DNA of 64,000 nt from Pseudanabaena mucicola FACHB-723 (lineage in GTDB: Bacteria; Cyanobacteriota; Cyanobacteriia; Pseudanabaenales; Pseudanabaenaceae): positions 124,001-188,000 of the forward strand of contig NZ_JACJQB010000001.1 in assembly GCF_014696385.1 (NCBI RefSeq), in the 5' to 3' direction. This document shows positions 7,810-49,284 of the stretch, in pieces. Position 1 is the first letter of the stretch. Each line of letters starts with the position of its first letter. The notes below the pieces were generated by a model. It searched no databases, had not been told where the DNA came from, and worked only from the letters and a program-made list of their open reading frames with translations. The position numbers and the translations under genes are program-made.

Positions 7810-7864
7810 AAAACCCAGATTATCGTGCCGCCCGCGTAGCGGGCGGCACGATAATCTGGGTTTT
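7810..7864. repeat. Perfect 26-bp hairpin, GC-GTA-GC apex
   Basis: Arms of 26 bp match perfectly around GTA, with AAAACCCAGA at the outer end and a GC-rich core near the loop. It lies between divergent genes, so it is not an obvious terminator for either. The 25-bp core is close to that of the hairpin at 23599. Confidence 0.85.
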
Positions 7865-15231: not shown

Positions 15232-15369
15232 GATTACTTTTCATAATCGTTTCATTTTTTAAAATATAACACAAAATTTCCCACGGCAATTTCAACTAGC
15301 CTTCTGGGTTTTGATATCTAAGCAAAACTTGATTTGCTACATAGTGAATCCCCCTAAGAGTTAGGTGAG

Positions 15370-15466
15370 ACCCTCATCCCCCAGCCCCTTCTCCCTAGGG
15401 AGAAGGGGAGAAAAGCCAATATTTCTTGTTCCCTCTCCTACGGGAGAGTGGCTAGGGGTGAGGGCT
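15370..15466. repeat. Dispersed CCCTCA...TGAGGG repeat with two inner hairpins
   Basis: Outer ends CCCTCATCCCCCAGCC and GGCTAGGGGTGAGGG are near inverted repeats, enclosing CCTTCTCCCTAGGGAGAAGG and CCCTCTCCTACGGGAGAG. The same element type sits inside priA at 44072. It is intergenic here and might end the fusion gene's transcript. Confidence 0.75.
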
Positions 15467-36378: not shown

Positions 36379-36433
36379 AAGCCCCAAGAATCGGGCGGCG
36401 GCGCTCAGCGCCGCCGCCCGATTCTTGGGGCTT
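36379..36433. repeat. Perfect 26-bp hairpin, GC-TCA-GC apex
   Basis: Arms AAGCCCCAAGAATCGGGCGG-CGGCGC around TCA. It lies 20 bp after the DUF192 gene's stop and may end that transcript. Confidence 0.85.
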
Positions 36434-43080: not shown

Positions 43081-43139
43081 AAACCAGATAAATTTTTGAA
43101 AGCGCCGCGAAGCGGCGCTTTCAAAAATTTATCTGGTTT
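43081..43139. repeat. Perfect 28-bp hairpin, GC-GAA-GC apex
   Basis: Arms AAACCAGATAAATTTTTGAA-AGCGCCGC around GAA; the right arm ends one base before the stop codon complement of the MEKHLA gene. Related in its arm body to 27451. Confidence 0.9.
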
Positions 43140-43682: not shown

Positions 43683-46229
43683 ATGACAGTCTCTGCTCAA
43701 ATTCTAAACATTCATTGCGATCGCTATGTCAGCGTCTTGGTTGATTGTATTGGTATTGATGACTTGCTAACCTATCGCGTTCCAGAAGATATGGATATTC
43801 GCGTTGGTGATATTCTCAGCGTTCCCTTGGGGCAAAGATATGTGGGTGCGATTGCCTTGGATATTTCCTATACTTCCCAAATTGTCGATCCCAAAACTGA
43901 AATCAAGTCAGTTAGCACAGTAATTAGCACAGGTATTTTCCCAAAGACCTATTGGGAAATGCTGATTCGTACAGCCGATTACTATCGTACACCCGTGATG
44001 CAGACTGTCAAAACTGCCCTGCCACCGAAGTTATTAGATCATTCTCACTATCGGATTAAAGTAAAACAACTCCTCACTCCCCCCCCTCCTCTCCCTCTGG
44101 GAGAGGGGGAGCAGGATTCTTTTTCTCCTCTCCCAGAGGGAGAAGGTTTAGGGGTGAGGTCAATCTCAAAAGCTGCCCAAATGGTTTGGGATTTCTTACA
44201 GGAGCATACCCATAATCCCAAGGGAATTAGCCGCCGCTATATTTATCAAAAGCTCGGCAGATATGCGAGTTCAGGATTAAAGGAATTGCAGAACTTAGCA
44301 TGGATTGAAACGGTTTTAGAAATGCCCCATCGACCGCAACCTAAGTATGAAGATGTCGCTATTTTACTCAAGGCGGCTGATGGCGAATTAACAGAAAGAC
44401 AAGCCGAGATTTTGACGATTATGCAACATCAGGGTGGGGAATGTTTAAAAACGCAATTGTATAAACTTGCAAAGACTACCGCGACCACGATCCAAAATTT
44501 GGCAAATAAAGGATATCTAGCAATATCCAAGCGAGAATCTTTGCGGTTAGGGGGCAAAAGTCACACAGTTACCCGCGATTGTGCTAAAAATCTCACCCCC
44601 GATCAAGATGCGGCACTACAACAAATTTTGACTGCGATCGCAAATCAAACTGCCTCCCATTTTCTCTTGCATGGAGTCACAGGGTCGGGCAAAACTGAGG
44701 TCTATCTCCAAGCGATTGCACCTGTACTCGAATCTGGCAAATCAGCGCTAGTGTTAGTTCCTGAAATTGGCTTGACCCCCCAACTCACCGATCGCTTTCG
44801 CGCTAGATTTGGTGATGCGAAGGTGAATGTTTATCATAGCCAACTGTCTGAAGGAGAACGCTTTGATACATGGAGACTGATGCTCACAGGTGAAGCTCAA
44901 ATCGTGATCGGTACACGCTCGGCCGTATTTGCTCCCCTCACAAATTTGGGACTGATTGTGATGGATGAGGAACATGACAACAGCTTCAAGCAAGATCAAC
45001 CGCAACCCTGCTACCATGCTCGCAAAATTGCCGAATGGCGATCGCAATTAGAGCAGATTCCGCTTGTACTTGGCTCGGCAACACCTTCCGCTGAGGTTAT
45101 TTACGCCCATCAACAGCAACAATCTATCTATCTCGAACTACCCCATCGCATCGGCAATAAGGACATGCCTCCGATCGAAATAGTCGATATGCGAGATGAA
45201 TTTAAGGCGGGTAATTATTCGATTTTGAGTCGTAAACTGCAAATTGCGATCGCAGCTATGCTCGAAGCCAAACAGCAAGGAATTCTATTTATCCATCGGC
45301 GCGGTCATAGCACCTTTGTTTCCTGTCGCTCCTGTGGCTACGTCGCCGAATGCCCTAACTGTGATGTATCTCTTTCCTATCACGATCCGATCTCACCTAC
45401 CGCCTATCAACCCAAATCCGCTCATTTGCGATGCCATTACTGTAACTACACCATCATTCAGCCCAAATCCTGTCCCCAATGTGGCTCACCATACTTCAAG
45501 CACTTTGGTAGTGGAACTCAAAAAGTGGAACAGGAACTTGCCAAACTATTCCCCGATATTCGTCTCATTCGCTTTGACAGTGACACTACCCGCAACAAGG
45601 ATCAACATCGATTACTCATCGATCAATTCCGTTCAGGAGAAGCTGATTTATTAGTGGGAACACAAATGTTAACCAAGGGTTTAGATATTCCCCAAGTAAC
45701 TCTGGTGGGTGTTGTTTCGGCGGATGGATTATTAAATTTTTCGGACTATCGCGCAGGGGAGCGAGCCGCCCAAACTTTACTCCAAGTTGCTGGCAGAGCA
45801 GGTCGTGGGGAGGAAGAAGGCAAAGTAATCATGCAAACCTATACGCCCGAACATCCCGCCATTCAAGCCGTGCAAACCTATCAATTAGAAGAATTTATGC
45901 AAAGCGAATTGGAAATGCGTGAGGCTTTGCGTTATCCACCAATGGGGCAGATGGCGTTAATTCATCTCAGTAGTGAGAGTGCGACGACGGTGGAAAAATC
46001 AGCCCACGAATTAGCAGAATATTTGCGACAGTTAGAGAATGATTGGGATATTTTAGGAGCAACTCCTGCCACGATTGCCAAGGTTGCGAATCGTTACCGT
46101 TGGCAGATTCTGCTCAAATTCAATCCTGATGTTTTGCCCAATGTCCCCAGCCTAGAAGAATTAAGAATGTTAGTTAACTCTAAGGCAGTCAGAATTGCGA
46201 TCGATGTTGATCCCCTGACAATATTGTAA
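43683..46229 (+). CDS. priA: Primosomal replication restart helicase PriA
   Basis: PriA of 848 residues. The N-terminal DNA-binding domain is followed by the helicase: Walker A LLHGVTGSGKTEVY, DEEH box IVMDEEHDNSFKQ, the zinc cysteines (CRSCGYVAECPNCD, CHYCNY, CPQCG) and the C-terminal helicase motif QVAGRAGRGEEEGKV. It restarts stalled forks. Residues about 130-159 (rich in P, G and E) are encoded by a dispersed palindromic repeat inserted in frame, between KVKQLL and ISKAAQ. The insertion is in a linker, so activity may survive. Confidence 0.95.
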   Translation: MTVSAQILNIHCDRYVSVLVDCIGIDDLLTYRVPEDMDIRVGDILSVPLGQRYVGAIALDISYTSQIVDPKTEIKSVSTVISTGIFPKTYWEMLIRTADYYRTPVMQTVKTALPPKLLDHSHYRIKVKQLLTPPPPLPLGEGEQDSFSPLPEGEGLGVRSISKAAQMVWDFLQEHTHNPKGISRRYIYQKLGRYASSGLKELQNLAWIETVLEMPHRPQPKYEDVAILLKAADGELTERQAEILTIMQHQGGECLKTQLYKLAKTTATTIQNLANKGYLAISKRESLRLGGKSHTVTRDCAKNLTPDQDAALQQILTAIANQTASHFLLHGVTGSGKTEVYLQAIAPVLESGKSALVLVPEIGLTPQLTDRFRARFGDAKVNVYHSQLSEGERFDTWRLMLTGEAQIVIGTRSAVFAPLTNLGLIVMDEEHDNSFKQDQPQPCYHARKIAEWRSQLEQIPLVLGSATPSAEVIYAHQQQQSIYLELPHRIGNKDMPPIEIVDMRDEFKAGNYSILSRKLQIAIAAMLEAKQQGILFIHRRGHSTFVSCRSCGYVAECPNCDVSLSYHDPISPTAYQPKSAHLRCHYCNYTIIQPKSCPQCGSPYFKHFGSGTQKVEQELAKLFPDIRLIRFDSDTTRNKDQHRLLIDQFRSGEADLLVGTQMLTKGLDIPQVTLVGVVSADGLLNFSDYRAGERAAQTLLQVAGRAGRGEEEGKVIMQTYTPEHPAIQAVQTYQLEEFMQSELEMREALRYPPMGQMALIHLSSESATTVEKSAHELAEYLRQLENDWDILGATPATIAKVANRYRWQILLKFNPDVLPNVPSLEELRMLVNSKAVRIAIDVDPLTIL
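44072..44159. repeat. Palindromic repeat inserted in frame in priA
   Basis: Outer ends CCTCACTCC and GGGGTGAGG, with inner CTCTCCCTCTGGGAGAG and CTCTCCCAGAGGGAGA hairpins. Same family as 15370-15466. It stays open in the priA frame and adds about 29 residues. Confidence 0.85.
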
Positions 46230-49230: not shown

Positions 49231-49284
49231 GACCAAAACGAAAAGCAAGTATCACTTTTGTGATACTTGCTTTTCGTTTTGGTC
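49231..49284 (+). terminator. Strong intrinsic hairpin terminator
   Basis: Perfect 25-bp arms GACCAAAACGAAAAGCAAGT-ATCAC around TTTT, 20 bp after the small secreted protein's stop. Confidence 0.85.

Follow-up and report, generated by a model that had tools for sequence, protein, structure and literature searches.

An old REP doublet in the PriA linker of Pseudanabaena mucicola, with the DUF559 nuclease as a candidate partner enzyme

Palindromic repeats in protein genes and the priA insert

REPs lying in frame in genes of replication and repair, the Rickettsia palindromic elements (RPEs) and the REPINs are all already known, and the locus described below is compared with them. REP and REPIN elements have RAYT (TnpA-REP) proteins as their partners (PMC3116915, PMC8266576). 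REPs of the GTAG/CGTC type were found in DNA replication and repair genes as in-frame dimers coding for 20–30 residues, and they occur at the same site in recB of Xanthomonas (Di Nocera et al. 2013, PMC3733652). The RPEs are palindromes that essential protein genes tolerate as in-frame insertions (reviewed in PMC10969869). Small dispersed repeats of cyanobacteria were described by Elhai et al. (2008, as cited in PMC3116915); going by that brief description alone, our element resembles them in being a very small mobile repeat of a cyanobacterial genome.

The window, by which we mean the whole 64,000-nt stretch of DNA that was analysed, holds on its forward strand the host gene priA for the primosomal replication-restart helicase (43683..46229), a single ORF of 848 aa recognised by the Pfam domains PriA_3primeBD, DEAD, Helicase_C and PriA_C and by solved PriA homologues. 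Within its frame lies a REPIN-like REP doublet (44072..44159, forward strand) that codes for LTPPPPLPLGEGEQDSFSPLPEGEGLGVR and is marked out by its repeat nature, by alignment and by low pLDDT. The doublet consists of two hairpins of about 43 nt, whose CCTCTCCC-n-GGGAGAGG cores face each other, with the outer ends CTCAC..GTGAG. The left 17-nt arm of its long inverted repeat (44090..44106, forward strand) includes the first of these cores, and the right 17-nt arm (44127..44143, forward strand) is its perfect complement. The right REP half (44117..44159, reverse strand) is matched by our covariance model R1 with 59.8 bits (G000:C1:168117-168159:-, the window offset being 124000) and carries the tag CCTCAC on the reverse strand. 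When folded, the doublet beats 200 of 200 shuffled sequences, with a z of -3.6 as DNA and -4.9 as RNA. The first-pass annotation had seen here a palindromic repeat in frame within priA, and the unbroken 848-aa frame together with the perfect 17-nt arms bears this out.

The insert follows the 3'BD (residues 18-114) and comes before the winged-helix region, whose start is near residue 163. It had been placed in a linker between the DNA-binding and helicase parts of the protein, which is right in that it follows the 3'BD and wrong in that it precedes the winged helix and not the helicase directly. In the AF2 model the inserted stretch, residues 131-158, has pLDDT values under 50, so that the linker is modelled as disordered. 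The element does code for the 29 residues that had been counted as added; these take the place of a shorter native linker, and the net gain counted from the alignment is only about 16 aa relative to congeners without the element. At priA there is no evident target-site duplication, and the insertion resembles a replacement. Real copies of the element have one to four of their six frames free of stops, and the priA copy has three of six, so that the makeup of the element does not in itself make an in-frame insertion rare. The open frame and the low pLDDT of the linker agree with the earlier view that the insert is tolerated in a housekeeping gene, and it is tolerated, as we see it, because the linker is flexible and several frames of the repeat have no stop codon. 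We propose that a REP doublet replaced part of a non-conserved, disordered PriA linker in a lineage ancestral to several species of the genus, and that it would have been kept in frame since then.

Compared with the REPs of Di Nocera et al., the likeness lies in the in-frame dimers in replication and repair genes and in the same-site occurrence; the repeat family and its tag are different, no DUF559 link was reported for those REPs, and the priA site studied here also holds unrelated, apparently non-repetitive palindromes. The RPEs, by description alone, are similar as in-frame palindromes in protein genes (here priA, leuS, cobN and GH94), but they are about 150 bp long, against about 90 bp for the doublet, and the present repeats have a candidate partner nuclease.

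Age of the priA copy and other palindromes at the same site

The doublet is found at the same site and codons in 4 of 21 congeners (G016, G018, G019 and G022), with a remnant in G014. Among the carriers the PriA proteins are only 86-89% identical, and the insertion is therefore old. On this point the first-pass annotation, which had taken the element to be active or recently active, does not hold for the priA copy. It had also named conservation of the segment in distant cyanobacterial PriA proteins as the finding that would speak against an insertion; the doublet is in fact missing from the PriA linker in eight other cyanobacterial families.

All carriers have a derived right flank, ..AISK or ..AIPK-like, in place of the usual ..LPK, and this common flank points to a single origin. 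When the linker is left out, the PriA tree nevertheless has carriers interleaved with non-carriers, and the well-supported branches force at least three changes. Transfer of a priA block between species was considered and rejected: the 30 codons on either side of the insert track the species relations, so at most very short tracts can have moved. We read this history as one insertion followed by exchange or replacement of very short tracts, with repeated loss as the alternative. In G022 (locus L050) the doublet in the linker has undergone a 39-bp tandem expansion, in which a 13-aa unit like QDSFSPLPLGVSK is repeated with the frame kept; every in-frame priA variant, this expansion included, leaves the frame open.

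The linker is not reserved for the doublet. In nine congeners that have no doublet, this site is occupied by unrelated palindromes that are near-perfect and score 14-31 bp (loci L036, L037, L044, L048, L035, L038, L040, L042 and L043), from which it follows that the linker tolerates hairpins generally. The 65-nt, 31-bp palindrome of G011 (L044) is single-copy in its genome, by which the idea that the priA-linker palindromes of other species are mobile repeats is ruled out for this locus. To us these unrelated palindromes look like local perfection or growth by template switching in a permissive stretch, a mechanism inferred in part from the arms in G005 and G012, which run on into conserved codons. 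Seen in this way, the flexible linker of an essential helicase is a landing pad for palindromes.

The occurrence of different palindromes at one site could also mean that priA retains a hairpin because it serves some function, be it in mRNA structure, in attenuation or in a PriA linker under regulation. Linker-site hairpins are present in 14 of 22 genomes of the genus, none scoring 10 or more is found elsewhere in the priA coding part of those genomes, the predicted RNA folds are very stable, and in G005 and G012 both arms of the palindrome reach into conserved coding sequence, all of which would fit selection. Yet seven congeners with a whole priA have no strong linker hairpin and one more has only a remnant, the outgroup priA genes have no hairpin at the site except in one weak case, the palindromes of different clades are unrelated in sequence, and a disordered loop would accept template-switch palindromes without any selection. 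We regard a retained function as improbable, and prefer to see an old insertion into a permissive linker.

Near-perfect palindromes are also common in the rest of the window. There are 18 of them, with scores of 13-28 bp and short loops, nearly all intergenic (for example at 43081-43139, 36379-36433, 7810-7864 and 49231-49284) and differing among themselves in sequence; three Markov-shuffled windows gave none.

The REP family and its possible movers

The priA doublet belongs to a family of repeats with the tag CCTCACCCC / GGGGTGAGG (the outer tag being written CCTCAC/GTGAGG). The half-element drawn from its relatives in the same genome is CCCTCACCCCTAGCCCCTCTCCC-n-GGGAGAGGGGAACAAGA, and it is present both singly and as inverted doublets. 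By blastn the priA repeat has 56 match places in its own genome, and the covariance model R1 finds at least 128 half-elements there (E <= 0.1), so that the repeat is not a chance palindrome. Each of the 26 genomes of the genus has R1 matches, numbering from at least 10 to at least 208 per genome; these covariance-model counts are lower bounds, with 150 candidates scored per genome. The priA repeat was earlier judged to be of the same type as an intergenic copy near 15370, and the covariance model does find both. This intergenic doublet (15369..15464, strand not assigned; R1 match at 15372-15415 of the window, G000:C1:139372-139415:+) is too diverged to be among the blastn matches. Copies in the genome differ from one another in sequence and are mostly intergenic; those in frame, besides priA, lie in genes for a GH94 protein, a CobN-type chelatase, LeuRS (leuS) and HsdR. 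When aligned to solved homologues, the CobN copy falls within a loop insertion; in LeuRS the site is a variable editing-domain loop, and the net gain there is small. In four other genomes (G039, G040, G153 and G168) tens of REP-half copies have identical model scores, which suggests recent spread of REPs there.

The likeness to REPs and REPINs is broad: short palindromes, single copies and inverted doublets, many dispersed copies, and a nuclease gene flanked by repeats. The differences are in the tag, which is CCTCACCCC and neither GTAG nor CGTC, and in the enzyme, since the neighbour here has a Vsr/EDxHD fold and not an HuH one and the genome of P. mucicola has no Y1_Tnp. A Y1/RAYT protein (TnpA-REP) could still move these REPs in trans, or have done so formerly, in which case the link to DUF559 described below would come from both gathering in defence islands. 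This account has in its favour some Y1_Tnp match in 22 of 26 congeners and a doublet architecture that is that of the REPINs (PMC3116915). Against it, no R1 REP is found near the six Y1_Tnp loci of the genus, and Y1_Tnp was not found in the genome of P. mucicola. RAYT as a present-day mobiliser in P. mucicola itself was accordingly rejected, and with the evidence on clustering given below we hold the broader account to be highly improbable. The open-access literature offered no explanation for the spread of REPs without RAYT.

DUF559 nucleases bracketed by REPs

DUF559 (PF04480) is present in 24 of 26 congeners, and its genes keep close company with the REPs. By the covariance model, a REP lies no more than 250 bp away on one or both sides at 26 of the 30 DUF559 loci in the genus, and on both at 20 of them. 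At 12 loci DUF559 is in frame and bracketed by REP-coded peptides; the hosts of these cassettes are HsdR, Type ISP, MmeI and DUF1156-type genes by Pfam, along with one host (L081) that has no Pfam name. The REPs around DUF559 are not strictly inverted, since they point outward at 10 of 18 loci and at 8 of 20; flank repeats are direct about as often as they are inverted, and a model of strict terminal inverted repeats was dropped because of this mixed orientation.

HsdR genes provide an empty site for such a cassette. The HsdR of G001 has no cassette, and over the queried part it shares 97% identity with that of G012, which has one; between the same host motifs there are 102 nt in G001 and 681 nt in G012, a difference of 579 nt (3 x 193), or 193 codons. 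In P. mucicola itself the HsdR gene (L065, G000:C9:64500-70800) is broken up into separate frames and holds a DUF559 cassette together with several REPs in frame. A further insertion there, of REP alone, replaces about 30 nt of a host loop, and the HsdR insertions therefore resemble loop replacement and not a clean insertion with duplication. The proposal of the first-pass annotation, to examine copies within genes for frame preservation, thus has a divided outcome: the GH94, CobN-type, LeuRS and HsdR copies are in frame, but in HsdR the frame does not continue beyond the cassette, so it is not always kept.

The association reaches well outside the genus. When contigs of GTDB species were scanned with an alignment of DUF559, 80 loci came out, spread over many phyla and with one archaeon among the sources. 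Perfect hairpins with a stem of at least 8 lie within 100 bp of DUF559 in 39 of 80 cases upstream and 48 of 79 downstream, against a rate of about 2% per 100 bp at distances above 400 bp and against 15 of 156 downstream of the stop codons of other genes at these loci. Repeats shared between the upstream and downstream flanks (scoring at least 13) were found at 38 of the 80 loci and in 1 of 80 swapped partners. Among 146 genomes of the phylum, 57 have both DUF559 and REPs, 17 DUF559 only, 15 REPs only and 57 neither, which gives an odds ratio of 12.7 (Fisher p 5e-12, with phylogeny not corrected for). At many of the 80 loci DUF559 lies in frame inside a long protein, and the Pfam-confirmed hosts outside the genus are HsdR, HsdM, MetH (three proteins), IleRS and an adenine deaminase. 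The housekeeping hosts in other phyla are MetH-type proteins at L143, L158, L170, L192 and L202 (L158 and L170 assigned by sequence only), IleRS at L160 and the adenine deaminase at L199. These settings bear on the RAYT account, since the hairpin peak at DUF559 is also seen inside metH and ileS, neither of which is a defence gene, and it is gone within 400 bp, too sharp for the clustering of defence islands.

DUF559 is labelled as of unknown function in Pfam, and has been assigned to the EDxHD homing family (PMC9403480). Its structural model matches 3hrl, then the homing endonuclease I-Bth0305I (3r3p) and Vsr, and the residues invariant in the alignment are R, E, D, E-x-D-G and H. A Vsr-like DUF559 protein of Caulobacter provokes a DNA-damage response in cells without a methylase (PMC12907096). 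The cassettes resemble EDxHD/Vsr-fold homing endonucleases such as I-Bth0305I in the fold, in the conserved acidic and His residues and in the in-gene insertion with an empty site. They differ in having no recognised intron or splicing domain, in being bracketed by REPs and in apparently being translated within the host protein. Pfam scans of 15 host ORFs showed no intein or Hint domain, and the REP-DUF559-REP cassettes are apparently left unspliced and translated as part of the host protein.

The explanation that we favour, by a little over even chances, is that of an old REP doublet in the priA linker with DUF559 as the partner enzyme of its family, the family itself being, within the same estimate, part of a wider set of hairpin repeats with C-rich tags that stand beside DUF559 genes and often bracket them. 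In this explanation DUF559, a Vsr/EDxHD-type nuclease, would cut at or near the REP hairpins or at empty sites; repair would then copy REPs or REP-DUF559-REP cassettes to new places, including protein loops in which they stay in frame; and the priA copy would be a nuclease-less form of the cassette. The repeat, its reading frame and age, the adjacency and joint occurrence of DUF559 and REPs, the in-frame cassettes and the one empty site are observed, and we infer from them both the causal role of DUF559 in REP movement and the cut-and-repair route. The main objection is that some REP-rich genomes are without DUF559: G007 has at least 136 REP matches and G008 at least 37, both with no DUF559 match, and G040 has at least 180, many with identical scores, and only a weak DUF559 match. 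DUF559 is therefore unnecessary for the presence of REPs, and perhaps also for their recent spread.

Such genomes are accounted for if DUF559 is instead a homing endonuclease that lands on REP hairpins as a parasite of the REPs, which themselves spread by other means (a lost RAYT, replication slippage or recombination). This would also account for a REP on both sides of the nuclease, and it fits the I-Bth0305I-like fold and the REP-only insertions in an HsdR gene that holds a DUF559 cassette as well. It leaves the mover of the REPs unnamed, however, in the face of four genomes (P. mucicola, G007, G021 and G038) with more than 120 REP matches each in which Y1_Tnp was not found, and many DUF559 loci have full doublets or several REPs per side and not one split doublet. 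We consider this parasitic relation unlikely, if the least so among the alternatives to DUF559 as a partner enzyme.

We put forward, as a tentative proposal that we would rate somewhat below even, that DUF559 and the C-tagged REPs form a previously unrecognised, prokaryote-wide mobile class: a REP-bracketed, homing-type endonuclease that would enter genes in frame, even essential ones, stay unspliced and shed nuclease-less doublets as in priA. No paper linking DUF559 to REPs or palindromes was found in the open-access literature, as far as which the DUF559-REP link is new, and it may show how repeats spread into protein genes. If the pairing is true, it would give a testable role both to the RAYT-less REPs and to DUF559; it would name a source of many Pro/Gly/Glu-rich loops (PLPLGEGLGVR-like) in bacterial proteins, and it would describe an endonuclease element that enters genes for enzymes such as MetH, IleRS and HsdR without an intron or an intein.

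A finer pairing between DUF559 clades and REP subtypes was also considered and was set aside as evidence. Within the genus it is as if each DUF559 clade had its own REP type, a pattern in which the common ancestry of shared insertions is a confounder, and over the 80 loci a Mantel test of clade against subtype gave a rho of 0.18, weakly above the 0.09 of a far-flank control. The other DUF559 clades of the genus (L073, L075, L076-L080, L083-L086, L090 and L093-L095) have different types of flanking hairpins, and these hairpins have one common layout, made up of a C-rich tag, a CCCC stem and a GGGGnACAAGA-like end.
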